Below, piece after piece: positions 5,861-47,128 of a DNA stretch of 64,000 bases. Source of the DNA: Misgurnus anguillicaudatus (Eukaryota; Chordata; Actinopteri; Cypriniformes; Cobitidae); the NCBI RefSeq assembly GCF_027580225.2, contig NC_073357.2, forward strand, positions 40,820,001 to 40,884,000. The letters are read 5' to 3'. Within the stretch, counting starts at the first letter, position 1; each line of letters opens with the position of its first letter. The notes beneath the pieces are model-generated. The model ran no database searches. It was not told the DNA's origin and was given only the letters and a program-made list of their open reading frames with translations. The position numbers and the translations under genes were made by a program.

Positions 5861-5924
5861 GCGTAGTCGGTGCCCACGATTCCGTATGGCAAAAAACACA
5901 ACAATATCCGCCAACCACAGAATG

Positions 5925-20974: not shown

Positions 20975-23900
20975 AATGGTCCAATCCCCATGTCCTTTGA
21001 TGTTCTGATGCAGATATAAGGCTTTCTTTATTTGGTTACTAGGGTACTGTATTTGGTTGCTAGGGAAAAAATTGCATTCACTAGTGATTACGCTACGAGT
21101 AAAAAAGTCCAACCCCTGTTTCTATGATGTTCTGATGCAGAGATATAAGGCTTTGTTTATTCTGATGCTAGGGTACTGTATTTGGTTGCTAGGGAGAGAA
21201 TTGGCATCCACTAGGGATTACAATCCGAATCACGTGTCAAACGGTCCAACCCCCGTGTCTCTACGATGTTTTGATGCGGAAATATAAAGCTTTGTTTATT
21301 CCGTTGCTAGGGTACTGTAATTGCTTGCTGGGGGGAAAATGGGTATCCACTAGTGATTACACTCCGATTCATGAGTCAAACGGTCCAACCCCGTGTCTCT
21401 ATGATGTTCTGATGCATAGAAATAAGCATTTGTTTACTCTGTTGCTAGGGTACTGTATTTGGTTGCTAGGGAAAAAATTGGCATCCACTAGTGATTACAT
21501 TCCGAGTCACGAGTAAAATAGTCCAACCCCCGCGTCTCTGTGATGTTCTGATGCGGAGATATAAGCCATTGTTTACTCTGTTGCTAGGGTACTGTATTTG
21601 GTTGCTAGGGAAAAAATTGGCATCCACTAGTGATTACATGCCGAGTCACGAGTAAAATAGTCCAACCCCGGCGTCTCTATGATGTTCTGATGCGGAGTTA
21701 TAAGCCTTTGTTTACTCTGTTGCTAGGGTACCGTATTTGGTTGCTAGGGGAAAAATGGCATCCACTAGTGATTACCCGCCGAGTCACGAGTCAAACGGTC
21801 CAACCCCCGTGTCTCTAAGATGTTCTGATGGGGAGATATAAGGCTTTGTTTACTCTGTTGCTAGGGTACTGTATTTGGTTGCTAGGGAAAAAATTGGCAT
21901 CCCATAGTGATTACACTCCGAGTCATGTGTCAAACGGTCCAACCCCCGGGTCTCCATGATGTTCTGATGCGGAGATATAAGGCTTTGTTTACTCTGTTGC
22001 TAGGGCACTGTATTTGGTTGCTAGGGCAAAAAATGGCATCCACTGGTGATTACACTCCAAGTCACAAGTCAAACGGTCCAACCCCCGTGTCTCTATGATG
22101 TTCTGATGCATAGAAATAAGCATTTGTTTACTCTTTTGCTAGGGTACTGTATTTGGTTGCTAGGAAAAAAAATTGGCATCCACTAGTGATTACATTCCAA
22201 GTCACGAGTAAAATAGTCCAACCCCCGCGTCTCTGTGATGTTCTGATGCGGAGATATAAGCCATTGTTTACTCTGTTGCTAGGGTACTGTATTTGGTTGC
22301 TAGGGAAAAAATTGGCATCCACTAGTGATTACATGCCGAGTCACGAGTAAAATAGTCCAACCCCGGCGTCTCTATGATGTTCTGATGCGGAGATATTAGC
22401 CTTTGTTTACTCTGTTGCTAGGGTACCATATTTGGTTGCTAGGGGAAAAATGGCATCCACTAGTGATTACCCGCCGAGTCACGAGTCAAACGGTCCAACC
22501 CCCGTGTCTCTAAGATGTTCTGATGGGGAGATATAAGGCTTTGTTTACTCTGTTGCTAGGGTACTGTATTTGGTTGCTAGGGAAAAAATTGGCATCCCAT
22601 AGTGATTACACTCCGAGTCACGTGTCAAACGGTCCAACCCCCGGGTCTCCATGATGTTCTGATGCGGAGATATAAGGCTTTGTTTACTCTGTTGCTAGGG
22701 CACTGTATTTGGTTGCTAGGGCAAAAAATGGCATCCACTGGTGATTACACTCCAAGTCACAAGTCAAACGGTCCAACCCCCGTGTCTCTATGATGTTCTG
22801 ATGCATAGAAATAAGCATTTGTTTACTCTTTTGCTAGGGTACTGTATTTGGTTGCTAGGAAAAAAAATTGGCATCCACTAGTGATTACATTCCAAGTCAC
22901 GAGTAAAATAGTCCAACCCCCGCGTCTCTGTGATGTTCTGATGCGGAGATATAAGCCATTGTTTACTCTGTTGCTAGGGTACTGTATTTGGTTGCTAGGG
23001 AAAAAATTGGCATCCACTAGTGATTACATGCCGAGTCACGAGTAAAATAGTCCAACCCCGGCGTCTCTATGATGTTCTGATGCGGAGATATTAGCCTTTG
23101 TTTACTCTGTTGCTAGGGTACCATATTTGGTTGCTAGGGGAAAAATGGCATCCACTAGTGATTACCCTCCGAGTCAAGAGTCAAACGGTCCAACCCCCGT
23201 GTCTCTACGATGTTCTGATGCGGAGATATAAGGCTTTGTTTACTCTGTTGCTAGGGTACTGTATTTGGTTGCTAGTGAAAAAATTGGCATCCACCAGTGA
23301 TTACCCTCCGAGTCACGAGTCAAACGGTCCAACCCCTGTGTCTCTAAGATGTTCTGATGGGGAGATATAAGGCTTTGTTTACTCTGTTGCTAGGGTACTG
23401 TATTTGGTTGCTAGGGAAAAAATTGGCATCCCAGAGTGATTACCCTCCAAGTCACGAGTCAAACGGTCCAACCCCCGTGTCTCTACGATGTTCTGATGCG
23501 GAGATATAAGCCTTTGTTTACTCTGTTGCTAGGGTACTGTATTTGGTTGCTAGGGGAAAAAATGGCATCCACTAGTGATTACCCTCCGAGTCACGAGTCA
23601 AACGGTCCAACCCCCGTGTCTCTACGATGTTCTGATGCAGAGATATAAGTATTTGTTTACTCTGTTGCTAGGGTACTGTATTTGGTTGCTAGGGAAAAAA
23701 TTGGCATCCACCAGTGATTACCCTCCAAGTCACGAGTCAAACGGTCCAACCCCCGTGTCTCTACGATGTTCTCATGCGGAGATATAAGCCTTTGTTTACT
23801 CTGTTGCTAGGGTACTGTATTTGGTTGCTAGGGAAAAAACGGCATCCACTAGTGATTACCCTCGGAGTCACGAGTCAAACGGTCCAACCCCCGTGTCTCT

Positions 23901-24127
23901 ACGATGTTCTGATGCGGAGATATAAGGCTTTGTTTATTCAGTTGCTAGGGTGCTCAAATTTGGTTGCTAGGGGCGTGGCTTGGGAGTGGCCAATGATGTG
24001 CCCAATTGTTACACGCCTAGTCACAAGTAAAACGGTCCAACCCCTGTGTCTCTACGATGTTCTGATGCCGAGATATAACTCTTTGAATTTTATGTTGCTA
24101 GGGTGCTCAAAAGTGGTTGCTAGGGGC
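20975..24127 (+). repeat. 139 bp satellite array 1 (module 1), ~23 monomers
   Basis: Each monomer carries TTGCTAGGGTACTGTATTTG, GGTTGCTAGGG, a GTGATTAC segment, CAAACGGTCCAACCCC, and GATGTTCTGATGCGGAGATA. Monomers repeat every 139 bases and are moderately diverged. A five-monomer block is duplicated exactly 695 bases apart (for example 21907-22322 against 22602-23017). The 5' edge has no module head, so this module is truncated. Short open frames of ~60-70 residues recur here because of the repeat and are not genes. Confidence 0.95.
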
Positions 24128-24804
24128 GTGGCTTAGTAAGTCTTTAAGGATCCAGAGAGGCTGATTGGATGCCTGAGTAAAATGAGCCCACCCCCATGTC
24201 TCTATGACATTGTGGTGCAAAGATATCCATCTGGGCATTTTATAATGGCAGTCTATGGGATAGGTTGCTAGGGTGCCCAAAATTGTTGCTAGGGTGAACT
24301 TACACCCCATTGTGGGGTATGTCCTGACAGAGTCTAGCACCCTCTTCAAATGTTGTGACCCACATGCTTCTACGAAATCCTCGCTCAGGCCTATGACCCA
24401 TCAAAGTTTTTCGCAATGTTAAGTCTATGGGATTTTCGCCCATTGACTTTGAATGGGAAATTTCGGGTGCCTCTTACACCCCAGGGGTACAGCTTACACC
24501 CCAATGTGATGTTTGTTCTTAAAGAGCCTAACACCCTCTTCAAATGTTGTAACCAACATGTATCTGCAAAATCCTCGAGCAGAGCTATGACCCTTCAAAG
24601 TTCGGCGCAATGTTAAGTCAATGGGATTTTTCGGGTGGTTTTTCGCCCCCCTTTCGAAAACCCTGCACCCGATTACTTATAAAAGATATAGCCCACTTCT
24701 CCTCAACAATCCGGTCAAGTTGATCGCTCTTTTATGGCTCTACGACAAACCGTGCGGGACGAGTTACGCGCCGAAATTTTGTGCAGACATAAGAATAAAG
24801 ATAT
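24128..24804 (+). mobile_element. Conserved 3' tail of module 1
   Basis: Starts with GGGCGTGGCTTAGTAAGTC and holds landmarks shared by most other tails: TGATTGGATGCCTGAGTAAA, CCCACCCCCATGTCTCTATG, TTACACCCCAGGGGT, CAATGTTAAGTCAATGGG and GACGAGTTACGCGCCG. It ends in AAGAATAAAGATAT where module 2 starts. The tail has the same internal motif order as the 139 bp monomer and looks like older, diverged monomers. Confidence 0.8.
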
Positions 24805-27108
24805 AACTAGATAGAAAAGTTTGTTGACAAACTTTATGTTGGCTTGACAAAGCGTAGCCTGTACGTTTAAAAAGGTTTGACAGATGTATAGTTTAGTAGG
24901 CTATCTGGCTGTTAGTATGTTTAAGTATGAAGCTAGCCTGATTTAGCATGAAGCTAGCATGATTAGCCTGAAGCTAGCATGAAGCTAACATGGTTAACAT
25001 GAAGCTAGCATCAAGTTAGCATGATTAACATGAAGATAGCATGATGCTAACATGAAATAGCATGAAGCTAACATGATGCTAACATGAATAAGCATGAAGC
25101 TAACATGATGCTAACATGAATTAGCATGAAGCTAGCATGATGCTAAAATAAATTAGCATGAAGCTAGCATGATGTTAACATGAATGAACATGAAGCTAGC
25201 ATGATGCTAACATGAATTAACATGAAGCTAACATGAATTAGCATGAAGCTAGCATGATGCTAACATGAATTAGCATGAAGCTAGCATGATGCTAACATGA
25301 ATTAGCATGAAGCTAGCATGATGCTAATATGAATTAGCATGAAGCTAGCATGATGCTAACATGAATTAGCATGAAGCTAGCATGATGCTAACATGAATTA
25401 GCATGAAGCTAGCATGATGCTAACATGAATTAGCATGAAGCTAGCATGATGCTAACATGAATTAGCATGAAGCTAACATGATGCTAACATGAATTAACAT
25501 GAAGCTAGCATGATGCTAATATGAATTAGCATGAAGCTAGCATGATGCTAACATGAATTAGCATGAAGCTAACATGATGCTAACATGAATTAGCATGAAG
25601 CTAACATGATGCTAACATGAATTAGCATGAAGCTAGCATGATGCTAATATGAATTAGCATAAAGGTAGCATGATGCTAACATGAATTAGCATGATGCTAA
25701 CATGAATTAGCATGAAGCTAGCATGATGCTAACATGAATTAACATGAAGCTAACGTGATGCCAACATGAAGCTAACATGATGTTAACATGAATTAGCATG
25801 AAGCTAGCATGATGCTAACATGAATTAGCATGATGCTAACGTGAATTAGCATGAAGCTAGCATGATGCTAACATGAATAAGAATGAAGTTAGCATGTTGC
25901 TAACATTAATTGGCATGAAGCTAACATGATGCTAACATGAATTAGCATTAAGCTAGCATGATGCTAACATAAATTAGCATGAAGCTAGCATGATGCTAAC
26001 ATGAATTAGCATGAAGTTAGCATGATGCTAACATAAATTAGCATTAAGCTAGCATGATGCTAACATAAATTAGCATGAAGCTAGCATGATGCTAACATGA
26101 ATTAGCATGAAGTTAGCATGATGCTAACATGAATTTGCATGAAGCTAACATGATGCTAACATGAATAAGCATGAAGTTAGCAAGATTTATTATGAAATTA
26201 GCATGAAGCTAGCATGAAACTAGCATGAAGCTAGTATGACTTAGCATGAAACTAGCATAAGGCTAACATGACCAAAAGACCCAACCCCCATGTCTCTATG
26301 ATGTTCGGATCCAGAGATATAAGGCTTTGTTTATTATGTTGCTAGGGTGCTCATATTTGGTTGCTAGGGGCGTGGCTTAATACCTCAATAAGAATCCTTA
26401 GAGACTGATTGGATGCCTGAGTAAAATGAGCCCACCCCCATGTCTCTGTGACACTGTGCTGCAAAGATATCCATCTGGGCATTTTATAATGGCAGTCTAT
26501 GGGAGATGTTGCTAGGGTACCCAAAAATGGTTGCTAGGGGCGTGGCTTAACAGCTATGAGACGATCCAGAGAGACTGATTGGATGCCTGAGTAAAATGAG
26601 CCCACCCCCATGTCTCTACGACACTCTAAAGTGAAGATATTCCATCTGGGACGCTTTTATTCCCTTATATGGGCACGTTCCTTGCCCCATTATAAGTCAA
26701 TGGGGAAATTTGGGTGCCTCTTACACCCCAGGGGTGAGACTTACACCCCAATGTGATGTATGTTCTTACAGAGCCTGCCAGCCTCTTCAAATGTGGTAAC
26801 CCACAAGTTTCTACAAATTTCTCGCTTGTAGCTATGACCCGTCAAAGTTTGTCGCAATGTTAAGTCAATGGAAAATTTGGGGTGTTTGAGCGCCCCGTTT
26901 AGGAATTCGGTAGGTCCCATCAGTTAGAAAAGATATAGCATAAATCTACGTACCAGTCTTAAAAGTTTTGTAAAGTTTTGTGGGTGTAGCTTGAAAGCTC
27001 TAGGAGGAGTTACTGTTAGAAAAAGTGTGGACCAGAAGAATAATAATAATAATAATAATAATAAGCTTAGATCGAAGAACAGTATGTTGGCTTTGTCAAG
27101 CCAACATA
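24805..27108 (+). mobile_element. Module 2 (type alpha): head, 32 bp array, tail, hairpin cassette
   Basis: The head starts AACTAGATAG, followed by a hairpin (AAAGTTTGT/ACAAACTTT) and TATGTTGGCTTGACAAAG. The array runs 24925-26270, the conserved tail 26271-27040, then (TAA)n and the closing cassette at 27083-27108, a hairpin whose 3' arm is AAGCCAACATA. The cassette is the inverted complement of the head's TATGTTGGCTTGAC, so head and cassette act as offset terminal inverted repeats. It sits inside module 1, whose own closing cassette follows. No coding sequence, so it is non-autonomous. Confidence 0.75.
24925..26270 (+). repeat. 32 bp minisatellite array (module 2), ~42 copies
   Basis: The unit consists of TTAGCATGAA, GCTAGCATGAT and GCTAACATGAA-like blocks, a 10-11 bp sub-repeat organised into a 32 bp higher unit. 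Copies are mostly identical with scattered A/G and single-block changes. Edges decay into irregular blocks. Confidence 0.96.
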
Positions 27109-27329
27109 ATAATATCCCTGAGGAATAGTAATAGTGATGCTTTGCATAAATGCAAGCACCACTAATAATAATAATAAGTTTAAGTGCAACAACAGTATGT
27201 TGGCTTTTTCAAGCCAACATAATAAGTTTAAGTGCAACAACAGTATGTTGGCTTTCTCAAGCCAACATAATAATAATAATAATAAGTTTAAGTGCAACAA
27301 CAGTATGTTGGCTTTCTCAAGCCAACATA
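27109..27329 (+). repeat. Run of four further hairpin cassettes with (TAA)n spacers
   Basis: After the module 2 cassette come one beta cassette (27134-27163, GTGATGC...GCAAGCACCAC) and three alpha cassettes (27196-27221, 27244-27269, 27304-27329; TATGTTGGCTT...AAGCCAACATA), each preceded by ATAATAATAA and mostly by GTTTAAGTGCAACAACAG. The beta cassette fits as the 3' end of module 1. The other three have no head in the window; they could be 3' ends of elements whose 5' parts are lost. Confidence 0.8.
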
Positions 27330-27446
27330 ACTAGATAGAAAAGTTTGTTGACAAACTTTATGTTGGCTTGACAAAGCCTGGCCTGAACGTTAAAAACGGT
27401 TTGACAGAAGTTTAGTTTAGTAGGCTATCTGGCTGTTAGTATGTTT

Positions 27447-28727
27447 AAGTATGAAGCTAGCCTGATTTAACATAAAGTTAGCATGATTAGCCTGAAGCTA
27501 GCATGAAGCTAACAAGATTAGCATGAAGCTAACAAGATTAGCATGAAGCTAACAAGATTAGCATGAAGCTAACAAGATTAGCATGAAGCTAGCATCAAGT
27601 TAACATGATTAGCATGAAGCTAGCATGATGCTAACATGAAATAGCATGAAGCTATCATGATGCTAACATGAATTAGCATGAAGCTAGCATGAAGCTAACA
27701 TGATTAGCATGAAGTTAGCATGAAGCTAGCATGATGCTAACATGAATTAGCATGAAGCTAGCATGATGCTAACATGAATTAGCATGAAGCTAGCATGATG
27801 CTAACATGAATTAGCATGAAGCTAGCATGATGCTAACATGAATTAACATGAAGCTAGCATGATGATAACATGAATAAGCATGAAGCTAGCATGATGCTAA
27901 CATGAATAAGCATGAAGCTAGCATGATGCTAACATGAATTAGCATGAAGCTAGCATGATGCTAACATGAATTAGCATGAAGCTAGCATGATGCTAACATG
28001 AATTAACATGAAGCTAGCATGATGCTAACATGAATAAGCATGAAGCTAGCATGATGCTAACATGAATAAGCATGAAGCTAGCATGATGCTAACATGAATA
28101 AGCATGAAGCTAGCATCATGCTAGCTTCATGCTAGCTTCATGCTAATTCATGTTAGCATGATGCTAGCATGATGCTAACATGAATTAGCATGAAGCTAGC
28201 ATGATGCTAACATGAATTAGCATGAAGCTAGCATGATGTTAACATGAATTAGCATGAAGCTAGCATGAAGCTAACATGAATTAGCATGAAGCTAGCATGA
28301 TGCTAACATGAATTAGCATGAAGCTAGCATGATGCTAACATGAATTAACATGAAGCTAACATGAATTAACATGAAGCTAGCATGATGCTAACATGAATTA
28401 GCATGAAGCTAGCATGATGCTAACATGAATTAGCATGAAGCTAGCATGATGCTAACATGAATTAGCATTAAGCTAGCATGATGTTAACATGAATTAGCAT
28501 GAAGCTAGCATGATGCTAACATTAATTAGCATGAACCTAGCATGATGCTAACATTGAATTAGCATGAAGCTAGCATGATGCTAACATGAATTAGCATGAA
28601 GCTAGCATGATGCTAACATGAATAAGCATGAAGTTAGCAAGATTTATTATGAAATTAGCATAAAGCTAGCATGAAACTAGCATGAAGCTAGTAAGACTTA
28701 GCATGAAGCTAGCATAAGGCTAACATG
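27447..28727 (+). repeat. 32 bp minisatellite array (module 3), ~40 copies
   Basis: Same unit as in module 2, all in the same orientation except for a short inverted patch near 28117-28163. Several early units read AACAAGATTAGCATGAAGCT, a variant local to this array. Confidence 0.96.
28085..28165. repeat. Inversion within the 32 bp array
   Basis: The run switches to the complementary orientation (CATGCTAGCTTCATGCTAGC, then TTCATGCTAATTCATG) for about 45 bases and then returns. Left and right of the switch the sequence is a palindrome with arms of about 35-40 bases, capable of forming a hairpin. Confidence 0.85.
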
Positions 28728-29589
28728 ACCAAAAGACCCAACCCCCATGTCTCTATGATGTTCGGATCCAGAGATATAAGGCTTTGTTTATTATGTTGCT
28801 AGGGTGCTCATATTTGGTTGCTAGGGGCGTGGCATAATACCTCAATAAGAATCCTTAGAGACTGATTGGATGCCTGAGTAAAATGAGCCCACCCCCATGT
28901 CTCTGTGACACTGTGCTCCAAAGATATCCATTTGGGCATTTTATAATGGCAGTCTATGGGAGATGTTGCTAGGGTACTCAAAAATGGTTGCTAGGGGCGT
29001 GGCTTAATAGCTATGGGACGATCCAGAGAGACTGATTGGATGCCTGAGTAAAATGAGCCCACTCCCATGTCTCTATGACACTGTAAAGCGAAGATATTCC
29101 ATCTGAACGTTTTTATTCCCTTATATGGGCGTGTTTCCTGCCCCGTTATAAGTCAATGGGGAATTTTGGGGGCCTCTTACACCCCAGGGGTGAAACTTAC
29201 ACCCCAATGTGAGGTATGTTCTCACAGTGCCTGCCAGCCTCTTCAAATGTGGTAACCCACAAGTTTCTACAAATTTCTCGCTCGCAGCTATGACCTGTCA
29301 AAGTTTGTCGCAATGTTAAGTAAATGGGACTTTTCGGAAGTTTTATGTCCAGTTTTAGGAATTCTGTAAGTCGGATCCCGTCAAAAAGATATAGCACACT
29401 TCTTTAGACCAGTAAGAATGTCCGTGGAAAATTTTGTTGATGTAGCTTGAAAGCTGTCGGACGAGTTAGCCGCAGAAATTTTAGTCTCAGAAGAAGAAGA
29501 ATAACTAGATAGGTACATTTCCTGAAGAAAATGTGAGTGGTGCTTGCCGTGGCAAAATTCTGGGGAACATATATGATTATACTCCAAGC

Positions 29590-31380
29590 CAAAAGTAAAA
29601 TGATCCAACTCCCGTGTCTCTACGAATATTCTGATGCGAAGATATAAGGTTTTGTTTACTTGGTTGCTAGGGTACTGTATTTGGTTGCTAGGGAACAAAT
29701 TGGCATCCAATAATGATTACACGCTGAGTCACGAATCAAACGGTCCAACCCCCGTGTCTCTACGATGTTCTGATGCGGAGATATAAGGCTTTGTTTACTC
29801 TGTTGCTAGGATACTGTATTTGGTTGCTAAGGAAAATTTTGGCACCCCATAATGATCACACTCTAAGTCACGTGTCAAACGGTCCAACCCCTGTGTCTCT
29901 ACGATGTTCTGATGCGGAGATATAAGGCTTTGTTTACTCTGTTGCTAGGGTACTGTATTTGGTTGCTAGGGGAAAAAATGGCATCCACTAGTGATTACCC
30001 TCCGAGTCACGAGTCAAGCGGTCCAAACCCCGTGTCTCTACGATGTTCTGATGCAAAGATATAAGGCTTTGTTTACTCTGTTGCTAGGGTACTGTATTTG
30101 GTTGCTAGGGAAAAAATTGGCATCCACTAGTGATTACCCTCCGAGTCACGAGTCAAACGGTCCAAACCCCGTGTCTCTACGATGTTCTGATGCAAAGATA
30201 TAAGGCTTTGTTTACTCTGTTGCTAGGGTACTGTATTTGGTTGCTAGGGAAAAAATTGGCATCCACTAGTGATTACCCTCCAAGTCATGAGTCAAGCGGT
30301 CCAAACCCTGTGTCTCTACGATGTTCTGATGCGTAGATATAAGGCTTTGTTTACTCTGTTGCTAGGGTACTGTATTTGGTTGCTAGGGAAAAAAATGTCA
30401 TCCACTAGTGATTACACTCTGAGTCACGAGTCAAACGGTCCAACCCCCGTGTCTCTACGATGTTCTGATGCGGAGATATAAGGCTTTGTTTACTCTGTTG
30501 CTAGGGTACTGTATTTGGTTGCTAGGGGAAAAAATGGCCACCACTAGTGATTACCCTCCGAGTCACGAGTCAAGCGGTCCAAACCCCGTGTCTCTACGAT
30601 GTTCTGATCCAAAGATATAAGGCTTTGTTTACTCTGTTGCTAGGGTACTGTATTTGGTTGCTAGGGAAAAAATTGGCATCCACTTGTGATTACCCTCCAA
30701 GTCATGAGTCAAGCGGTCCAAACCCTGTGTCTCTACGATGTTCTGATGCGGAGATATAAGGCTTTGTTTACTCTGTTGCTAGGGTACTGTATTTGGTTGC
30801 TAGGGAAAAAAATGTCATCCACTAGTGATTACCCTCCGAGTCACGAGTCAAACGGTCCAACCCCTGTGTCTCTACGATGTTCTGATGCGGAGATATAAGG
30901 CTTTGTTTACTCTGTTGCTAGGGTACTGTATTTGGTTGCTAGGGGAAAAAATGGCCACCACTAGTGATTACCCTCCGAGTCACGAGTCAAACGATCCAAC
31001 CCCCGTGTCTCTACGATGTTCTGATGCGGAGATATAAGGCTTTGTTTACTCTGTTGCTAGGGTACTGTATTTGGTTGCTAGGGGAAAAATTGGCCACCAC
31101 TACTGATTACCCTCCGAGTCACGAGTCAAACGGTCCAACCCCCATGTCTCTACGATGTTCTGATGCAAAGATATAAGGCTTTGTTTACTCTGTCGCTAGG
31201 GTGCTCAAATTTGGTTGCTAGGGGCGTGGCTTGGGAGTGGCCAATGATGTGCCCAATTGTTACACCCCTAGTCACAAGTAAAACGGTCCAACCCCCGTGT
31301 CTCTACGATGTTCTGATGCCGAGATATAACTGTTTGAATTTTATGTTGCTAGGGTGCTCAAAAGTGGTTGCTAGGGGCGT
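29590..31380 (+). repeat. 139 bp satellite array 2 (module 4), ~13 monomers
   Basis: Same monomer family as array 1 with local variants (GCGGTCCAAACCCCGTGTCT). A three-monomer block is repeated 417 bases apart (about 30130-30480 and 30547-30898). The last monomer merges into the tail through TTGCTAGGGGCGTGGCTTGG. Confidence 0.95.
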
Positions 31381-32124
31381 GGCTTAGTAAGTCTTTAAGG
31401 ATCATGAGAGACTGATTGGATGCCTGAGTAAAATGAGCCCACCCCCATGTCTCTATGACACTGTGGTGCAAAGATATCCATCTAGGCATTTTATAATGGC
31501 AGTCTATGGGATAGGTTGCTAGGGTGCCCAAAATGGTTGCTAGGGTGAACTTACACCCCATTGTGGGGTACGTCCTGAAAGAGTCTAGCACCCTCTTCAA
31601 ATGTTGTGACCCACATGTTTCTACGAAATCCTCGCTCGGACCTATGACCCGTCAAAGTTTTTCGCAATGTTAAGTCTATGGGATTTTCGCCCATTGACTT
31701 TGAATGGGAAATTTCGGGTGCCTCTTACACCCCAGGGGTACAGCTTACACCCCATTGTGATGTATGTTCTCAAAGAGCCTACCACCCTCTTCAAATGTTG
31801 TAACTCTCATGTATCTGCAAAATCCTCGAGCAGAGTTATGACCTTTCAAAATTCGGCGCAATGTTAAGTCAATGGGATTTTTCGGGTGGTTTTTCGCCCC
31901 CCTTTCGAAAACCCTGCACCCGATTGCTTATAAAAGATATAGCCCACTTCTCCTCAATAATCCGGTCAAGTTGATCCCTCTTTTGTGGCTCTACGACAAA
32001 CCGTGCGGGACGAGTTACGCGCCGAAATTTTGTGCAGACATAAGAATAAAGATATAACTAGATGAGGTTAAAGTTTGTGAACAAACTTTATGTTGGCTTG
32101 AGAAAGCCTAGTCTGAGAGTAATA

Positions 32125-33040
32125 GATGGAGCTGCAGTTGGGGCAGTTAAGTTAGTTGGGGCAGATGGGTTAGTTGGGGCAGAATTGGACAGTTGGGGCA
32201 GAATGGGGCATTTGTGGCAGATGGGGGATTTAGGGTAGTTGGGGCATTTGGGGTAGAATTGGATAATTGGGGCAGACGGGGCACTTGGGGCAGATGGGGC
32301 ATTTAGAGCAGTTGGGGCATTTAGAGCAGTTGGGGCAGAATGGGGCAGATGAGGCAGTTGGGGCATTTGAGGCATTTAGGGCAATTTGGGCAGAATGGGG
32401 CATTTAGGGCAGATGGGGCATTTAGGGCAGATGGGGCATTTAGGGCAGATGGGGCATTTAGGGCAGAATGGGGCAGATGAGGCAGTTGGGGCATTTGAGG
32501 CATTTAGGGCAGTTTGGGCAGAATAGGGCAGATGGGGCATTTAGGGCAGATGGGGCATTTAGGGCAGTTGGGGCATTTAGGGCAGTTGGGGCATTTGGGG
32601 CAGAATGGGGCAGATGAGGCAGTTGGGGCATTTAGGGCAGTTGGGGCATTTAGGGCATTTAGGGCAGTTGGGGCATTTAGGGCAGAATGGGGCAGATGGG
32701 GCATTTAGGGCAGATGGGGCATTTAGGGCAGTTGGGGCAGAATGGGGCAGTTGGGCAGAATTGGGTAGTTGGGGCAGATGGGGCATTTGGGGCAGATGGG
32801 GCATTTAGGGCAGTTGGGGCAGAATTGGGTGTTTGGGGCAGATGGGGCATTTAGGGTAGTTGGGGTATTTGGGGCAGAATTGGGTAGTTGGGGCAGACGG
32901 GGCATTTGGGGCATTTAGGGCAGATGAGGCATTTGGAGCAGAATTGGCCAGTTGGGGCAAATGGGGCAAATGGGGCGGTTAGGTTATTTGAGGCATTTGG
33001 GGCAGAATGGGGCAGATGGGGCATTTAGGGCAGTTGGGAC
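32125..33040 (+). repeat. 18 bp G-rich minisatellite
   Basis: Built from GGGGCATTTAGGGCAG and GGGGCAGATGGGGCATTT variants at 9 and 18 base spacing. Purine-strand runs of three and four G recur every 8-10 bases along about 900 bases of the plus strand. Pro-rich frames on the minus strand are artefacts of the repeat. Confidence 0.95.
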
Positions 33041-33150
33041 ATTTATGTGTGTGTTTGTGTGAGTATGATTGGGTGTGTAATATTGTGTTTGTGTGTGTAA
33101 TTTTGTGGTTGTGTGTCTGTGTGTGTGTGTGGTTGTGTGTGGTTGTGTGG

Positions 33151-33219
<69 letters not shown>

Positions 33220-33333
33220 TCTGTGTTTTTGTGGACGTATGTTATATATAATTTTGTGTTTGTGTGTGTAATTGTGTGTCTGTGTGTAGTTGTGTGTGGT
33301 TTTGTGTCTGTGTCTGTGTCTGTGTGTGATTGT

Positions 33334-33385
<52 letters not shown>

Positions 33386-33492
33386 ATGTCTGTGTTTTTG
33401 TGACAGTATGTTATATATAATTTTGTGTTTGTGTGTGTAATTGTGTGTCTGTGTGTAGTTGTGTGTCTGTGTGTGGTTGTGTGTCTGTGTGT

Positions 33493-33568
<76 letters not shown>

Positions 33569-33689
33569 GTGCATGTCTGTTTTTGTGACAGTATGTTATA
33601 TATATAATTTTGTGTTTGTGTGTGTAATTGTGTGTCTGTGTGTAGTTGTGTGTCTGTGTGTAGTTGTGTGTGATTGTGTGTCTGTGTGG

Positions 33690-33727
<38 letters not shown>

Positions 33728-35645: not shown

Positions 35646-36424
35646 TGACCAAAAGACCCAACCCCCATGCCTCTATGATTTTCGGATCCAGAGATATAAG
35701 GCTTTGTTTATTATGTTGCTAGGGTGCTCATATTTGGTTGCTAGGGGCGTGGCTTAATACCTCGATAAGAATCCTCAGAGACTGATTGGATGCCTGAGTA
35801 AAATGAGCCCACCCCCATGTCTCTGTGACACTGTGCTGCAAAGATATCCATCTGCGCAATTTATAATGGCAGTCTATGGAATAAGTTGCTAGGGTGCCCA
35901 AAAATGGTTGCTAGGGGCGTGGCTTAATAGCTATGGGACGATCTTGAGAGACTGATTGGATGCCTGAGTAAAATGAGCCCACCCCCATGTCTCTGCGACA
36001 CTCTAAAATGAAGATATTCCATCTGGGACACTTTTATTCCCTTATATGGGCATGTTTCCTGCCCCATTAAAAGTCAATGGGGAAATTTGGGTGCCTCTTA
36101 CACCCCAGGGGTACAGCTTACACCCCAATGTGATGTATGTTCTTACACAGCCTACCAGCCTCTTCAACTGTGATAACCCACAAGTTTCTACAAATTTCTC
36201 GTTCGCAGCTATGACCCGTCAAAGTTGGTCGTAATGTTAAGTCAATGGAAATTTTGGGGTGTTTGAGCGCCCCGTTTAGGAATTCGGTAGGTCCCATCAG
36301 TTAGAAAAGTCATAGCATAAATCTACGTACCAGTCTTAAAAGTTTTGTAAAGTTTTGTGGGTGTAGCTTGAAAGCTCTAGGAGGAGTTACAGTTCGAAAA
36401 AGTGTGGACCAGAAGAATAATAAT

Positions 36425-39400
36425 AACTAGATAGGTACATTTCCTGAAGAAAATGTGAGTGGTGCTTGCCGTGGCAAAATTCTGGGGACCATATATGATT
36501 ATACTCCAAGCCAAAAGTAAAACGATCCAACTCCCGTGTCGCTACGATGTTCTGATGCGGAGATATAAGGCTTTGTTTACTGTGTTGCTAGGGTACTGTA
36601 TTTGGTTGCTAGGGAAAAAAATGGCATCCACTGGTGATTACCCTCTGAGTCACGAGTCAAACGGTCCAACCCCCGTGTTTCTACGATGTTCTGATGCGGA
36701 GATATAAGGCTTTGTTTACTCTGTTGCTAGGGTACTGTATTTGGTTGCTAGGGAAAAAATTGGCATCCCATAGTGATTACACTCTGAGTCACGAGTCAAA
36801 TGGTCCAACCCCTGTGTCTCTACGATGTTCTGATGCGGAGATATAAGGCTTTGTTTACTCTGTTGCTAGGGTACTGTATTTGGTTGCTAGGGAAAAAATT
36901 GGCATCCCATAGTGATTACACTCTGAGTCACGAGTCAAATGGTCCAACACCCGTGTTTCTACGATGTTCTGATGCGGAGATATAAGGCTTTGTTTACTCT
37001 GTTGCTAGGGTACTGTATTTGGTTGCTAGGGAAAAAATTGGTATCCCATAATGATTACACTCTGAGTCACGAGTCAAACGGTCCAACCCCCGTGTCTCTA
37101 CGATGTTCTGATGCGGAGATATAAGGCTTTGTTTACTCTGTTGCTAGGGTACTGTATTTGGTTGCTAGGGAAAAAATTGGCATCCCATAATGATTACACT
37201 CCGAGTCACGAGTCAAACGGTCCAACCCCCGTGTCTCTACGATGTTCTGATGCGGAGATATAAGGCTTTGTTTACTCTGTTGCTAGGGTACTGTATTTGG
37301 TTGCTAGGGAAAAAATTGGCATCCCATAATGATTACCCTCCGAGTCACGAGTCAAACGGTCCAACCCCCGTGTCTCTACGATGTTCTGATGCGGAGATAT
37401 AAGGCTTTGTTTACTCTGTTGCTAGGGTACTGTATTTGGTTGCTAGGGAAAAAATTGTTATCCCATAATGATTACACTCCGAGTCACGAGTCAAACGGTC
37501 CAACCCCCGTGTCTCTACGATGTTCTGATGCGGAGATATAAGGCTTTGTTTACTCTGTTGCTAGGGTACTGTATTTGGTTGCTAGGGAAAAAATTGGCAT
37601 CCCATAATGATTACACTCCGAGTCACGAGTCAAACGGTCCAACCCCCGTGTCTCTACGATGTTCTGATGCGGAGATATAAGGCTTTGTTTACTCTGTTGC
37701 TAGGGTACTGTATTTGGTTGCTAGGGAAAAAATTGGCATCCCATAATGATTACACTCCGAGTCACGAGTCAAACGGTCCAACCCCCGTGTCTCTACGATG
37801 TTCTGATGCGGAGATATAAGGCTTTGTTTACTCTGTTGCTAGGGTACTGTATTTGGTTGCTAGGGAAAAATTGGCAACCCATAATGATTACACTCCGAGT
37901 CACGAGTCAAACGGTCCAACCCCCGTGTCTCTACGATGTTCTGATGCGGAGATATAAGGCTTTGTTTACTCTGTTGCTAGGGTACTGTATTTGGTTGCTA
38001 GGGAAAAAATTGGCATCCCATAATGATTACCCTCCGAGTCACGAGTCAAACGGTCCAACCCCCGTGTCTCTACGATGTTCTGATGCGGAGATATAAGGCT
38101 TTGTTTACTCTGTTGCTAGGGTACTGTTTTTGGTTGCTAGGGAAAAAATTGGCATCCCATAATGATTACACTCCGAGTCACGAGTCAAACGGTCCAACCC
38201 CCGTGTCTCTACGATGTTCTGATGCGGAGATATAAGGCTTTGTTTACTCTGTTGCTAGGGTACTGTATTTGGTTGCTAGGGAAAAATTGGCAACCCATAA
38301 TGATTACACTCCGAGTCACGAGTCAAACGGTCCAACCCCCGTGTCTCTACGATGTTCTGATGCGGAGATATAAGGCTTTGTTTACTCTGTTGCTAGGGTA
38401 CTGTATTTGGTTGCTAGGGAAAAAATTGGCATCCCATAATGATTACCCTCCGAGTCACGAGTCAAACGGTCCAACTCCCGTGTCGCTACGATGTTCTGAT
38501 GCGGAGATATAAGGCTTTGTTTACTGTGTTGCTAGGGTACTGTATTTGGTTGCTAGGGAAAAAAATGGCATCCACTGGTGATTACCCTCTGAGTCACTAG
38601 TCAAACGGTCCAACCCCCGTGTTTCTACGATGTTCTGATGCGGAGATATAAGGCTTTGTTTACTCTGTTGCTAGGGTACTGTATTTGGTTGCTAGGGAAA
38701 AAATTGGCATCCCATAGTGATTACACTCTGAGTCACGAGTCAAATGGTCCAACCCCTGTGTCTCTACGATGTTCTGATGCGGAGATATAAGGCTTTGTTT
38801 ACTCTGTTGCTAGGGTACTGTATTTGGTTGCTAGGGAAAAAATTGGCATCCCATAGTGATTACACTCTGAGTCACGAGTCAAATGGTCCAACACCCGTGT
38901 TTCTACGATGTTCTGATGCGGAGATATAAGGCTTTGTTTACTCTGTTGCTAGGGTACTGTATTTGGTTGCTAGGGAAAAAATTGGTATCCCATAATGATT
39001 ACACTCTGAGTCACGAGTCAAACGGTCCAACCCCCGTGTCTCTACGATGTTCTGATGCGGAGATATAAGGCTTTGTTTACTCTGTTGCTAGGGTACTGTA
39101 TTTGGTTGCTAGGGAAAAATTGGCAACCCATAATGATTACACTCCGAGTCACGAGTCAAACGGTCCAACCCCCGTGTCTCTACGATGTTCTGATGCGGAG
39201 ATATAAGGCTTTGTTTACTCTGTTGCTAGGGTACTGTATTTGGTTGCTAGGGAAAAAATTGGCATCCCATAATGATTACCCTCCGAGTCACGAGTCAAAC
39301 GGTCCAACCCCCGTGTCTCTACGATGTTCTGATGCGGAGATATAAGGCTTTGTTTACTCTGTTGCTAGGGTACTGTATTTGGTTGCTAGGGAAAAAATTG

Positions 39401-42075
39401 GCATCCCATAATGATTACACTCCGAGTCACGAGTCAAACGGTCCAACCCCCGTGTCTCTACGATGTTCTGATGCGGAGATATAAGGCTTTGTTTACTCTG
39501 TTGCTAGGGTACTGTATTTGGTTGCTAGGGAAAAATTGGCAACCCATAATGATTACACTCCGAGTCACGAGTCAAACGGTCCAACCCCCGTGTCTCTACG
39601 ATGTTCTGATGCGGAGATATAAGGCTTTGTTTACTCTGTTGCTAGGGTACTGTATTTGGTTGCTAGGGAAAAAATTGGCATCCCATAATGATTACCCTCC
39701 GAGTCACGAGTCAAACGGTCCAACTCCCGTGTCGCTACGATGTTCTGATGCGGAGATATAAGGCTTTGTTTACTGTGTTGCTAGGGTACTGTATTTGGTT
39801 GCTAGGGAAAAAAATGGCATCCACTGGTGATTACCCTCTGAGTCACGAGTCAAACGGTCCAACCCCCGTGTTTCTACGATGTTCTGATGCGGAGATATAA
39901 GGCTTTGTTTACTCTGTTGCTAGGGTACTGTATTTGGTTGCTAGGGAAAAAATTGGCATCCCATAGTGATTACACTCTGAGTCACGAGTCAAATGGTCCA
40001 ACCCCTGTGTCTCTACGATGTTCTGATGCGGAGATATAAGGCTTTGTTTACTCTGTTGCTAGGGTACTGTATTTGGTTGCTAGGGAAAAAATTGGCATCC
40101 CATAGTGATTACACTCTGAGTCACGAGTCAAATGGTCCAACACCCGTGTTTCTACGATGTTCTGATGCGGAGATATAAGGCTTTGTTTACTCTGTTGCTA
40201 GGGTACTGTATTTGGTTGCTAGGGAAAAAATTGGTATCCCATAATGATTACACTCTGAGTCACGAGTCAAACGGTCCAACCCCCGTGTCTCTACGATGTT
40301 CTGATGCGGAGATATAAGGCTTTGTTTACTCTGTTGCTAGGGTACTGTATTTGGTTGCTAGGGAAAAAATTGGCATCCCATAATGATTACACTCCGAGTC
40401 ACGAGTCAAACGGTCCAACCCCCGTGTCTCTACGATGTTCTGATGCGGAGATATAAGGCTTTGTTTACTCTGTTGCTAGGGTACTGTATTTGGTTGCTAG
40501 GGAAAAAATTGGCATCCCATAATGATTACCCTCCGAGTCACGAGTCAAACGGTCCAACCCCCGTGTCTCTACGATGTTCTGATGCGGAGATATAAGGCTT
40601 TGTTTACTCTGTTGCTAGGGTACTGTATTTGGTTGCTAGGGAAAAAATTGTTATCCCATAATGATTACACTCCGAGTCACGAGTCAAACGGTCCAACCCC
40701 CGTGTCTCTACGATGTTCTGATGCGGAGATATAAGGCTTTGTTTACTCTGTTGCTAGGGTACTGTATTTGGTTGCTAGGGAAAAATTGGCAACCCATAAT
40801 GATTACACTCCGAGTCACGAGTCAAACGGTCCAACCCCCGTGTCTCTACGATGTTCTGATGCGGAGATATAAGGCTTTGTTTACTCTGTTGCTAGGGTAC
40901 TGTATTTGGTTGCTAGGGAAAAAATTGGCACCCCATAATGATTACCCTCCGAGTCACGAGTCAAACGGTCCAACCCCCGTGTCTCTACGATGTTCTGATG
41001 CGGAGATATAAGGCTTTGTTTACTCTGTTGCTAGGGTACTGTATTTGGTTGCTAGGGAAAAAATTGGCATCCCATAATGATTACACTCTGAGTCATGAGT
41101 CAAACGGTCCAACCCCCGTGTCTCTACGATGTTCTGATGCGGAGATATAAGGCTTTGTTTACTCTGTTGCTAGGGTACTGTATTTGGTTGCTAGGGAAAA
41201 AATTGGCATCCCATAATGATTACACTCTGAGTCATGAGTCAAACGGTCCAACCCCTGTGTCTCTACGATGTTCAGATGCCGAGATATAACTGTTTGAATT
41301 TTGTGTTGCTAGGGTACTCAAAAACGGTTGCTTGGGGCGTGGCTTATACCTATGTAAGTATCCTGAGAGACTGATTGGATGCCTGAGTAAAATGAGTCCA
41401 CCCCCATGTCTCTATGACACTGTGGTGCAAAGATATCCATCTGGGCATTTTATAATGGCAGTCTATAGGAGATGTTGCTAGGGTGCCCAAAATTGTTGCT
41501 AGGGGCGTGGCTTAATAGCTCTGGGATGATCCTGAGAGACTGATTGGATGCCCGAGTAAAATGAGCCCACCCACTTATCTCTACGACACTGTAAAGCAAA
41601 GATATCCCATCTGGAACTGTTTTATTCCCTTATATGGGCATGTTTCCTGCCCCATTATAAGTCAATGGGAATTTTCGGGCGCCTCTTACACCCCAGGGGT
41701 ACAACTTACACCTCATTGTGATCTATGTTCTTACAGAGTCTACCCCCTTCTTCAAATGTTGTAACCCACATGTTTCTACAAAATCCTCAAGCGGAGATAT
41801 GACTCGTCAAAGTTGGGCGCAATGTTAAGTCAATGGGATTTTTCGGGTGGTTTTTCGCCCCCCTTTCGGAAATCCTGCACCCGATCGCTTATAAAAGTCA
41901 TAGCAGACGTGTCCTCAACAAGCCGGTCGTTTTGAGCCCTGTTTCATTGGTCTACGACAAACCGTGCGGGACGAGTTACGCGCCGAAAAAGTGTCCAGAT
42001 ATAAGAATAAATAAATAAATAATAATAAGTATGAGCAATAGTAATAGTGATGCTTTGCATAAATGCAAGCACCAC
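36425..42075 (+). mobile_element. Module 7 (type beta) with the longest 139 bp array
   Basis: A beta head at 36425, a 139 bp array (36510-41285), a tail (41286-42020) and a beta cassette at 42047-42075. Module 8 begins one or two bases after the cassette. Non-coding. Confidence 0.75.
36510..41285 (+). repeat. 139 bp satellite array 3 with higher-order structure, ~34 monomers
   Basis: Monomers are far more uniform than in arrays 1 and 2. A diagnostic variant (CCAACTCCCGTGTCGCTACG with CTGTGTTGC) marks the start of higher-order units at about 36531, 38475 and 39724: 14 monomers, then 9 monomers, then about 11. The 9-mer matches the 14-mer with an internal five-monomer block missing. Some monomers lack one A (GGGAAAAATTGGCAACCC), which accounts for spacing two bases short of exact multiples. 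Confidence 0.95.
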
Positions 42076-42076
42076 T

Positions 42077-44129
42077 AACTAGATAGGTACATTTCCTGAA
42101 GAAAATGTGAGTGGTGCTTGCCGTGGCAAAATTCTGGGTAACATATATGATTATACTCCAAGCCAAAAGTAAAACGATCCAACTCCCGTGTCTCTACGAT
42201 GTTCTGATGCGGAGATATAAGGCTATGTTTATCCGGTTGCTAGGGTACTGTATTTGGTTGCCAGGGAAAAAATTGCCATCCACTAGTGATTACCCTCCGA
42301 GTCACGAGTCAAACGGTCCAACCCCCGTGTCTGTACAATGTTCTGATGCGGAGATATAAGGCTTTGTTTACTCTGTTGCTAGGGTACTGTATTTGGTTGC
42401 TAGGGAACAAATTGGCATCCACTAGTGATTACCCGCCGAGTCACAAGTCAAACGGTCCAACCCCCGTGTCTCTACGATGTCCTGATCCAAAGATATAAGG
42501 CTTTGTTTACTCTGTTGCTAGGGTACTGTATTTGGTTGCTAGGGAAAAAATTGGCATCCACTAGTGATTACCCTCCGAGTCACGAGTCAAGCGGTCCAAA
42601 CCCCGTGTCTCTACGATGTTCTGATGCGGAGATATAAGGCTTTGTTTACTCTGTTGCTAGGGTACTGTATTTGGTTGCTAGGGAAAAAATTGGCATCCAC
42701 TAGTGATTACCCTCCGAGTCACGAGTCAAACGGTCCAAACCCCGTGTCTCTACGATGTTCTGATGCGGAGATATAAGGCTTTGTTTACTCTGTTGCTAGG
42801 GTACTGTATTTGGTTGCTAGGGAAAAAATTGGCATCCACTACTGATTACCCTCCGAGTCACGAGTCAAACGGTCCAACCCCCGTGTCTCTACGATGTTCT
42901 GATGCAGAGATATAAGGCTTTGTTTATTCTGTTGCTAGGGTACTGTATTTGGTTGCTAGGGAAAAAATTGGCATCCCATAGTGATTACACTCTGAGTCTC
43001 GAGTCAAACGGTCCAACCCCCGTGTCTCTACGATGTTCTGATGCGGAGATATAAGGCTTTGTTTACTCTGTTGCTAGGGTACTGTATTTGGTTGCTAGGG
43101 AAAAATTGGCATCCCATAGTGATTACACTCCAAGCCACAAGTAAAACGGTCCAACCCCCGTGTTTCTACGATGTTCTGATGTTGAGATATAAGGCTTTGT
43201 ATATTCGGTTGCTAGGGTACTGTATTTGGTTGCTAGGGAGAAAATTGCCATCCCATAATGATTACACTTCAAGTCATAAGTAAAACGGTCCAACCCCCGT
43301 GTCTCTACGATGTTCTGATGCCGAGATATAACTGTTTGAATTTTATGTTGCTAGGGTGCTCAAAAGTGGTTGCTAGGGGCGTGGCTTAATACCTCAATAG
43401 GATCCCGACAGACTGATTGGATGCCTGAGTAAAATGAGCCCACCCCCATGTCTCTGTGACACTGTGGTGCAAAGATATCCATCGGGGCATTTTATAATGG
43501 CAGTCTATGGGATAGGTTGCTAGGGTGCCCAAAATGGTTGCTAGGGTAACCTTACACCCCATTGTGGGGGACATCCTGACAGAGTCTAGCACCCTTTTCA
43601 AATTTAGTAACCCACATCTTTCTACAAAATCCTGGCTCGTACCTATGACCCGTCAAAGTATTTGCAATGTTAAGTCTATGGGATTTTCCCCCATTGACTT
43701 TTCATTGGGGCACTTTTGGGTGCCTCTTACACCCCAGGGGTACAACTTACACCCCAATGTGATATATGTTCTTACAGAGTCTACCACCCTCTCCAAATGT
43801 TGTAACCTACATGTTTCTACAAAATCCTCGAGCGGAGCTATGACTCGTCAAAGTTGGGCTCAATGTTAAGTCAATGGGATTTTTCGGGTGGTTTTTCGCC
43901 CCCCTTTTGGAAATCCTGCACCCGATCGCTTATAAAAGTCATAGCAGTCGTGTCCTTAATAAGCCCGTTGATTTGAGCCCTCTTTCATGGGTCTACGACA
44001 AACCGTGCGGGACTAGTTAGGTGCCGAAAAAGTGTGCAGATGTAAGAATAAAATATAATAATTATTATAATAATAATAATATCCCTGAGCAATAGTAATA
44101 GTGATGCCTTGCATAAATGCAAGCACCAC
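42077..44129 (+). mobile_element. Module 8 (type beta)
   Basis: A beta head, a 139 bp array of about nine monomers (42160-43345), a tail (43346-44080) and a beta cassette (44101-44129). It is complete end to end and the shortest intact beta module here, which makes it a useful reference copy. Confidence 0.78.
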
Positions 44130-44130
44130 T

Positions 44131-47021
44131 AACTAGATAGGTACATTTCCTGAAGAAAATGTGAGTGGTGCTTGCCGTGGCAAAATTCTGGGGAACATAT
44201 ATGATTATACTCCAAGCCAAAAGTAAAACGATCCAACTCCCGTGTCTGTATGATGTTCTGATGCGGTGATATAAGGCTGAGATTATCCGGTTGCTAGGGT
44301 ACTGTATTTGGTTGCTAGAGAAAAAATTGGCATCCACTAGTGATTACACTCAGAGTCACGAGTCAAACGGTCCAACCCCCGTGTCTCTATGTTGTACTGA
44401 TGCGGAGATATAAGGCTTTGTTTATTTGGTTGCTAGGGTACTCAAATTTGGTTGCTAGGGGCGTGGCTTGGGAGTGGCCAATGATGTGACCAGTTGTTAC
44501 ACTCCGAGTCACAAGTAAAACGGTCCAACCCCCGTGTCTGTATGATGTTCTGATGCGGAGATATAAGTCTCTGTTTACTCTGTTGCTAGGGTACTGTATT
44601 TGGTTGCTATGGAAAAAATTGGCATCCCATAGTGATTACATTCTGAGTCACGAGTCAATCGGTCCAACCCCCGTGTCTCTACGATGTTCTGATGCGGAGA
44701 TATAAGGCTTTGTTTACTCTGTTGCTAGGGTACTGTATTTGGTTGCTAGGGAAAAAATTGGCATCCCATAATGATTACACTCTGAGTCACGAGTCAAACA
44801 GTCAAACCCCCGTGTCTCTACGATGTTCTGATGCGGAGATATAAGGCTTTGTTTACTCTGTTGCTAGGGTACTGTATTTGGTTGCTAGGGAAAAAATTGG
44901 CATCCCATAATGATTACACTCCGAGTCACGAGTCAAACGGTCCAACCCCCGTGTCTCTACGATGTTCTGATGCGGAGATATAAGGCTTTGTTTACTCTGT
45001 TGCTAGGGTACTGTATTTGGTTGCTAGGGAAAAATTTGGCATCCCATAGTGATTACACTCTGAGTCACGAGTCAACCGGTCCAACCCCCGTGTCTCTACG
45101 ATGTTCTGATGCGGAGATATAAGGCTTTGTTTACTCTGTTGCTAGGGTACTGTATTTGGTTGCTAGGGAAAAAATCGGCATCCACTAGTGATTACCCTCC
45201 AAGTCACGAGTCAAACGGTCCAAACCCAGTGTCTCTACGATGTTCTGATGCGGAGATATAAGGCTTTGTTTACTCTGTTGCTAGGGTACTGTATTTGGTT
45301 GCTAGGAAAAAAATTGGCATCCCATAATGATTACACTCTGAGTCACGAGTCAAACAGTCAAACCCCCGTGTCTCTACGATGTTCTGATGCGGAGATATAA
45401 GGCTTTGTTTACTCTGTTGCTAGGGTACTGTATTTGGTTGCTAGGGAAAAAATTGGCATCCCATAATGATTACACTCCGAGTCACGAGTCAAACGGTCAA
45501 ACCCCCGTGTCTCTACGATGTTCTGATGCGGAGATATAAGGCTTTGTTTACTCTGTTGCTAGGGTACTGTATTTGGTTGCTAGGGAAAAAATCGGCATCC
45601 ACTGGTGATTACACTCTGAGTCACGAGTCAAACGGTCCAACCCCCGTGTCTCTACGATGTTCTGATGCAGAGATATAAGGCTTTGTTTACTCTGTTGCTA
45701 GGGTACTGTATTTGGTTGCTAGGGAAAAATTTGGCATCCCATAGTGTTTACCCTCCGAGTCACGAGTCAAACGGTCCAAACCCAGTGTCTCTACGATGTT
45801 CTGATGCGGAGATATAAGGCTTTGTTTACTCTGTTGCTAGGGTACTGTATTTGGTTGCTAGGGAAAAATTTGGCATCCCATAGTGATTACACTCTGAGTC
45901 ACGAGTCAAACGGTCCAACCCCCGTGTCTCTACGATGTTCTGATGCAGAGATATAAGGCTTTGTTTACTCTGTTGCTAGGGTACTGTATTTGGTTGCTAG
46001 GGAAAAATTTGGCATCCCATAGTGATTACACTCTGAGTCACGAGTCAAACGGTCCAACCCCCGTGTCTCTACAATGTTCTGATGCGGAGATATAAGGCTT
46101 TGTTTACTCTGTTGCTAGGGTACTGTATTTGGTTGCTAGGGAAAAATTTGGCATCCCATAGTGATTACACTCTGAGTCACGAGTCAAACGGTCCAACCCC
46201 CGTGTCTCTACGATGTTCGGATGCCGAGATATAACTGTTTGAATTTTATGTTGCTAGGGTGCTCAAAAGTGGTTGCTAGGGGCGTGGCTTAATACCTATG
46301 TAAGTATCCTGAGAGACTGATTGGATGCCTGAGTAAAATGAGCCCACCCCCATGGCTCTATGACACTGTGGCGCAAAGATATCCATCTGGGGATTTTATA
46401 ATGGCAGTCTATGGGAGATGTTGCTAGGGTGCCCAAAATTGTTGCTAGGGGCGTGGCTTAATAGCTCTGGGATGATCCTGAGAGACTGATTGGATGCCCG
46501 AGTAAAATGAGCCCACCCACGTATCTCTACGACACTGTAAAGCAAAGAAATCCCATCTGGAACTGTTTTATTACCTTATATGGGCATGTTTCCTGCCCCA
46601 TTATAAGTCAATGGGAATTTTCGGGTGCCTCTTACAGCCCAGGGGTACAACTTACACCCCAATGTCATGTATGTTCTTACATAGCCTACCACCCTCTTCA
46701 AATGTTGTAAACCACACGTTTCTACAAAATCCTTGAGCGGAGCTATGACCCATCAAAGTTGGGCGCAATGTTAAGTCAATGGGATTTTTTGGGTGGTTTT
46801 TCGCCCCCCTTTCGAAAATCTTTTACCCGATCGCTTATAAAAGTCATAGCAGACGTGTCCTCAATAAGCCGGTCGTTTTTAGCCCTGTTTCATTGGTCTA
46901 CCACAAAACGTGCGGGACGAGTTACGCGCCGAAAAAGTGTCCAGATATAAGAAAAAAAAAATAAATAATAATAAGTATGAGCAATAGTAATAGTGATGCC
47001 TTGCATAAATGCAAGCACCAC
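44131..47021 (+). mobile_element. Module 9 (type beta)
   Basis: A beta head, a 139 bp array (44210-46230, ~14 monomers), a tail (46230-46975) and a beta cassette (46993-47021). One early monomer is replaced by the divergent GGGGCGTGGCTTGGGAGTGG type otherwise seen at array ends, suggesting recombination inside the array. Confidence 0.78.
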
Positions 47022-47128
47022 TAATAAGCTTAGATCGAAGAACAGTATGTTGGCTTTGTCAAGCCAACATAATAATAATAATAAGTTTAAGTGCAACAAC
47101 AGTATGTTGGCTTTCTCAAGCCAACATA

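Follow-up and report, generated by a model that had tools for sequence, protein, structure and literature searches.

Our data indicate that an array in the window (the whole stretch of 64,000 nucleotides analysed here, C21:40820001-40884000 of a 1.12-Gb genome in 61 contigs) consists of satellite-bearing transposons that are nested like brackets, each younger one lying in the short TTA repeat of its predecessor. The last-in-first-out (LIFO) pairing of their ends is right. The elements are very probably of the HINE type, non-autonomous relatives of Helentrons, with two end-families (alpha and beta) on the minus strand, nested in LIFO order.

Nested elements of the window

An earlier note, made from the sequence alone, had described the array as heads and hairpin cassettes and had read these as opening and closing brackets. 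We recovered all eight heads where it had placed them: the alpha heads at 24805, 27329 and 34233 are exact, the beta heads lie at 29503, 36425, 42077 and 44131, and the fourth alpha head, at 32056, is present but divergent (AACTAGATGAGG...). The 13 cassettes were likewise found at their reported places, with the last T of CAACAT or CACCACT taken as the coordinate; eight are alpha (27107, 27220, 27268, 27328, 34119, 34229, 47070 and 47127) and five are beta (27163, 34175, 42076, 44130 and 47022). The inverted relation claimed for heads and cassettes is present in all eight window pairs, where the longest exact match measures 18-19 bp in alpha and 12 bp in beta. A stack parser reproduced the proposed groups M1(M2), M3(M4(M5)) and M6(M7,M8,M9) with matching types and, as in the note, left four alpha cassettes unpaired; it lists five unpaired cassettes, including the beta cassette of M1, because M1 is without a head. 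The finer agreement reported for alpha ends (GAG with CTC in M5, otherwise GAC with GTC) and the lead-in common to M2 and M6 are also correct.

The 5'/3' polarity assigned in the note is reversed, since the elements read on the minus strand according to the HINE plan. What the note calls a head is a 3' end, and its cassettes are 5' ends; insertions do sit in the microsatellite near an end of the host, as described, but this is the host's 5' end and not its 3' end. On the right the array ends at 47127, and its left limit lies at about 20969, inside a satellite, rather than at 20975. The final 600 bp of the 3' part of M1 are 96% identical to M4, and by eye the join of M1 and M2 resembles the M4 join and the uninterrupted M8.

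Table 1. Features of the nested array in the window, and beta 3' ends near Helentron copies elsewhere in the genome. HINE denotes the very probable assignment given in the text.
Feature	Position	Strand	Basis or remark
M1, beta HINE, 3' part of host with body and satellite	20969..24804	-	own 3' end missing, truncated in 139-bp satellite
M2, alpha HINE, complete, within M1; lead-in CTTAGATCG	24805..27107	-	GAC/GTC pair
Landing-pad example (candidate): (AAT)n, which is (TTA)n on the transposon strand, at the boundary of M2 body and 5' end	27039..27064	.	
M1 5' end (beta subTIR palindrome), resumed past M2	27108..27163	-	bracket parse
Three alpha 5' ends without partner (27220, 27268, 27328)	27164..27328	-	bracket parse
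M3, alpha HINE, host, 3' part	27329..29502	-	body end predicts lead-in TTTAAATACAATATC
M4, beta HINE, host, 3' part	29503..32055	-	bracket parse
M5, divergent alpha HINE (GAG/CTC), complete; carries TGGGGCAG and TG repeats	32056..34119	-	
M4 5' end, beta	34120..34175	-	bracket parse
M3 5' end, alpha, lead-in TTTAAATACAATATC, GTC	34176..34229	-	parse and lead-in
M6, alpha HINE, host, 3' part	34233..36424	-	parse and body continuity
M7, beta HINE, complete, about 4.8 kb of 139-bp satellite	36425..42076	-	
M8, beta HINE, complete, abuts M7 5' end	42077..44130	-	
M9, beta HINE, complete, abuts M8 5' end	44131..47022	-	
M6 5' end, alpha, lead-in CTTAGATCG, GTC	47023..47070	-	parse and lead-in
Outermost alpha 5' end, unpaired (TTTAAGTGC, CTC); right limit of array	47071..47127	-	
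Beta 3' ends beyond window-type Helentron copies	C6:7014011, C6:6772124, C21:42893803		same polarity

Pairing of ends across arrays

Candidate places in the genome numbered 1728 for the alpha junction and 1823 for the beta end, and the best 40 of each were scored. We fetched 20 stretches of 10 kb, representing 20 of the 40 full-length junction places (one further place is the window itself), joined neighbouring stretches and ran the stack parse on the window and 15 stretches. Since the stretches were selected by an alpha cassette-plus-head query, the sample consists of arrays and nesting is over-represented in it. Ends were compared by subtype, namely beta or alpha with loop GAC, GAG or GAA.

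In the first set, LIFO pairing gave subtype agreement in 14 of 15 non-innermost pairs, while for the same cassettes first-in-first-out (FIFO) pairing gave 9 and pairing with the nearest head gave 6; shuffled pairs agreed in 5.3 cases on average, and approximately 1 shuffle in 100,000 equalled the observed value. With an extension of the array C11 added, 18 of 19 non-innermost pairs agree, far above shuffled pairs (mean 7.5), and none of 200,000 shuffles reached 18. When one copy of a duplicated pair is dropped, agreement is 17 of 18 against a shuffled mean of 6.8. Innermost pairs agree in 33 of 34 cases, or in 29 of 34 if near-variants are not pooled into the GAC class (cassettes with loop GAC for GTC, and GCC heads); pooling affects four of the 33 innermost pairs, and no non-innermost pair relies on it. 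The pair L049 355/3366 was included among the matches on account of its variant stem, although the loops differ by one base, and the divergent head L034:9336 lies outside the count of the stricter parser. The non-innermost mismatch is between a beta cassette at L042:8560 and an alpha head at 4150; our guess is that the alpha cassette of host 4150 has been lost, and by eye the beta cassette belongs with the end of the beta body at 2174, a combination also seen in M1 and M4. The innermost mismatch is L041 5889/8000 (GAC against TTC).

The first parse of C11 left five heads open, for which LIFO order set the closings GAA, GAC, GAC, GAC, GAG before the sequence beyond had been read. We found that the next 4 kb contain five closings in exactly this order, the last two with the lead-ins that the interrupted host bodies imply (by eye), and that the remaining 3.5 kb past these closings hold no further end. 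Both arrays with two visible edges are balanced, C11 having eight heads and eight cassettes at depth 5 and C17 five of each at depth 4. An extension of C22 by 1 kb yielded one more head, in the (TTA)n tract of the last open host, instead of closings.

Host bodies were compared over the 200 bp ahead of the first nested head with uninterrupted copies. The first set has 15 interrupted hosts; in 11 of them the best-matching uninterrupted copy shows an identical lead-in, three have a same-type variant (M4, C11:9236 and L049:3367), and one disagrees (L042). The nested self-insertion proposed for the window is thus supported by subtype agreement, by the continuity of host bodies and by the closing order in C11.

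The left edge and the unpaired cassettes

The loose ends of the window are the four alpha cassettes and the headless M1, and seven of the fetched stretches also contain cassettes for which the stretch itself offers no open head. The four alpha cassettes of the window are probably the remains of outer elements that lost their other halves at a truncated left edge. With a single truncation from the left, M1 would have lost its 3' end, and of four outer elements only the 5' ends would survive, each now unpaired. A 78% copy of the right flank that lacks the array lies in another stretch (L035, about 8760-8830), and the left continuation of that copy was not found in the window, so the left edge is unlike an original insertion edge.

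The extra 5' ends could instead have arisen by composite transposition, starting at an outer 5' end and stopping at the first inner 3' end, a process that has been proposed for Fusarium Helitrons, or by unequal exchange between (TAA)n tracts. Several 5' termini with a single 3' terminus are described for FoHeli in the available part of that report (PMC5148889), the three adjacent orphans of the window are near-identical with a spacing of 48-60 bp, and a cassette has apparently been lost in L042. However, C11 and C17, the two arrays with both edges seen, are without orphans, the five missing 3' ends of the window would all fall to the left of one truncation inside the satellite, and the array-free copy of the right flank continues leftward into sequence that was not found in the window. 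We therefore consider such an origin unlikely for the window and prefer left truncation; it is possible that composite elements are likelier in the other stretches whose edges are cut.

The flank at 47128-47408 is itself repeated sequence, with a counterpart lacking the array at L035:8797-9053.

Anatomy and class of the elements

On the minus strand, the elements run in the order TT, palindromic subTIR, lead-in, (TTA)n, body with satellites, subTIR, hairpin, CTAG, TT. The subTIR repeat (18-19 bp in alpha, 12 bp in beta) has an offset of 0 at the 5' end and begins 31-34 nt from the 3' end. The 5' palindrome folds in both families (z -6.7 in alpha, -4.0 in beta); the 3' hairpin folds in alpha (z -2.9 and -4.9) and is weak in beta, with a 6-bp stem and z -0.6. 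An inverted-repeat scan of two trial regions returned no pair of at least 12 bp, because the stems are shorter or farther apart than the regions span. Between the end modules lie the microsatellite and central tandem repeats, and open frames of at least 90 codons in the array reach a maximum of 277 codons and fall mostly within repeats. Read on the given strand, all 69 of 69 cassettes are followed by AA, in agreement with insertion at TT, and interrupted hosts are split at AA. An empty copy is available for one flank of the window array, where a TT duplication and a T/T insertion with terminal Ts are indistinguishable.

The opposite polarity, with the head as the 5' end and the hairpin cassette as the 3' end, is quite improbable: a hairpin close to the 3' end is a Helitron feature too, but this reading puts CTAG and a second hairpin at the 5' end and the microsatellite by the 3' end, while the other strand places them at HINE positions. 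A canonical Helitron was rejected because, although the 3' CTAG fits, the elements lack TC at the 5' end and insert at TT, not between A and T. A TIR/MITE transposon was rejected because the repeat is terminal at one end only and lies 31-34 nt internal at the other. Replitrons were also considered, and none of the literature matches listed concerned Replitron ends.

In a variant alpha end at L049:294-3367 the head reads AAGTTGG and the cassette CCAACTT, so that the stem is changed at both ends together while the loop is unchanged.

Insertion site and orientation

Insertions lie at a TT in the host's microsatellite or at a TT just ahead of the host's 5' end, in the orientation of the host. All 34 of the 34 heads that interrupt a host body sit in the (TTA)n that this host carries close to its 5' end (flanks read by eye), and their left flanks end in an AAT/AAG-rich tract that separates body from lead-in. 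Another 33 of the 80 heads lie directly against a 5' end, a figure inflated by the selection of stretches, and one head (L042:8576) lies within a lead-in. Head orientation is that of the array in 80 of 80 cases, with none opposed. We took the 45 nt ahead of the lead-in as the candidate pad in the 34 innermost elements, where it holds on average 12.6 of the element's 212.9 AA and 1.8 of its 169.7 TT. A TT rule alone would place approximately 6% of same-orientation insertions in the pad and would allow many opposed ones; 34 of 34 were observed there.

It is possible, and we propose it tentatively with rather less than even confidence, that the (TTA)n tract is a dedicated, strand-asymmetric landing pad that steers insertion into the element's own family, always at one place and in a single orientation, and that arrays thereby grow inward as a stack. 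We infer that such a pad would have been selected for rather than being a by-product. To judge from what is known of the family, the Rep/helicase of an autonomous Helentron would copy the element from its 5' end, copying would stop at the 3' hairpin and CTAG, and the copy would be joined at a TT. One strand of (TTA)n has many TT and the other few, so the tract would offer a landing pad on one strand and thereby set the orientation.

That tandem rolling-circle copying or template switching instead set copies side by side, with the brackets merely read in, is very improbable: M7, M8 and M9 do abut head to tail, and 28 of 30 loci have an exact AACTAGATAG head directly after a cassette with 0-3 AAT between (the query favours such loci), but tandem copying gives neither the LIFO agreement of distant ends from different families (14 of 15, against 9 for FIFO and 6 for the nearest head) nor the continuity of an interrupted host body, and the closings of C11 in stack order also speak against it.

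With nesting as the preferred reading, the brackets themselves record the relative age of the copies, and one genome is enough to read the order of transposition. If the pad is real, a TT-preferring transposon can turn self-targeting and collect satellite DNA into blocks, which would give a rolling-circle transposon a route to large satellite-rich blocks without hitting genes. Single-strand choice by Helentrons also becomes testable, since TT sites are abundant on just one of the two strands of a (TTA)n tract.

Alpha elements at 24805, 32056 and L042:2174 share the first TT of the beta host pad (...AGATAT/AA, the slash marking the insertion). The groups M1(M2) and M4(M5) look alike, though M2 differs from M5, because the same TT of the pad was hit.

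Comparison with known systems

Our data indicate that the parts of these elements are of a known kind and that their ordered nesting is the unusual feature; the sources below are cited for the portions available. HINE elements have palindromic subTIRs of at least 11 bp, at a distance of 2-4 nt from the 5' terminus and of 38-60 bp from the 3' terminus, together with a 3' palindrome and a T-rich target, and some copies carry microsatellites or tandem repeats (PMC4067079). The window elements resemble HINE/DINE-1 in having subTIRs at both ends, a palindromic 5' subTIR, a 3' palindrome, repeats (in some HINE copies) and a TT or T-rich target, for which that paper found no target modification (PMC4067079). 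They differ in their 3' CTAG and in a subTIR that lies slightly nearer to the 3' end (31-34 nt), and regular nesting in one orientation is not described for HINE/DINE-1 in the available text (PMC4067079). The 3' end of proto-Helentrons is CTAG and that of canonical Helitrons CTRR (PMC4067079). Cg_HINE of the Pacific oyster likewise has left and right modules separated by short arrays of satellite, a subTIR with inverted repeat and palindrome, microsatellites and a preference for TT; for Cg_HINE itself the portion available gives no target duplication. Unlike our description of the window, the main text of that paper has no occurrence of the word 'nested' (PMC7492417).

FoHeli elements of Fusarium (Helitron2 type) share asymmetric inverted repeats, self-insertion and multiple 5' ends with one 3' end, and two subgroups have hairpins at both termini, as here (PMC5148889). 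The available part of that source gives one nested case and describes no landing pad, whereas arrays of the window type reach depth 5, and a 5' end that may have received two insertions is mentioned for Metarhizium (PMC5148889). In lepidopteran Hel-2 Helitrons the 5' subterminal repeat is directly followed by a microsatellite, and the 3' end has CTRR with a hairpin, similar to the window elements (PMC4344730).

The choice of a microsatellite as target also has a parallel. The lep1 Helitrons reportedly disrupt (GAAA)n microsatellites. In contrast to the window, the target microsatellite of Hel-2/lep1 is not described as element-borne in the portion of the source available (PMC4344730). Self-insertion of Helitrons, multiple 5' ends, tandem copies and microsatellite targets have been published already (PMC4067079, PMC7492417, PMC11955569, PMC4344730, PMC5148889, PMC3833285). 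Neither deep nesting in one orientation into an element's own microsatellite nor a strand-fixed pad appeared in the available portions of the literature searched, which included few subscription papers; this absence is weak evidence that the nesting depth and the pad are new.

Helentrons as candidate partners

The genome contains 114 matches to PF14214, many of them in open frames of more than 2,200 codons, and the window itself has an uninterrupted Helentron frame of 2294 codons at 5928-12809 on the minus strand, with DUF6570, Helitron_like_N (Rep), PIF1 helicase and endonuclease domains. No alpha or beta end was found beside this Helentron in the window, and the 3' region of its family extends past the left window edge. 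We found that 21 of 86 Helentron places lie within 50 kb of HINE places, compared to 0.45 expected if evenly placed; the 86 are the 114 matches minus 28 weaker or fragmentary ones, hand-sorted into three size groups, and the 80 HINE places are the best 40 of each of the two queries. Shared accumulation in repeat-rich DNA would produce the same proximity.

Beta 3' ends of the same polarity occur 2.7-4.7 kb past the last compared base of three window-type Helentron copies (Table 1), and no such end was found for the other window-type copies among the best 40 beta places. The window-type family is thus a candidate partner through these nearby beta ends, as a lead and not a proof. The Helentron of another stretch, L044, gives no evidence for a partner, because foreign sequence interrupts the neighbouring HINE host near L044:799 (by eye).

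In the 3' region of the window Helentron (3300-5960), a 124-bp unit is repeated in tandem approximately five times, and a segment several hundred bases long is nearly duplicated. At 14126 on the minus strand, upstream of the Helentron frame, a signature resembling a 3' end, with a hairpin, ACCTAG and then T(TTA)n, may represent a third end-family.
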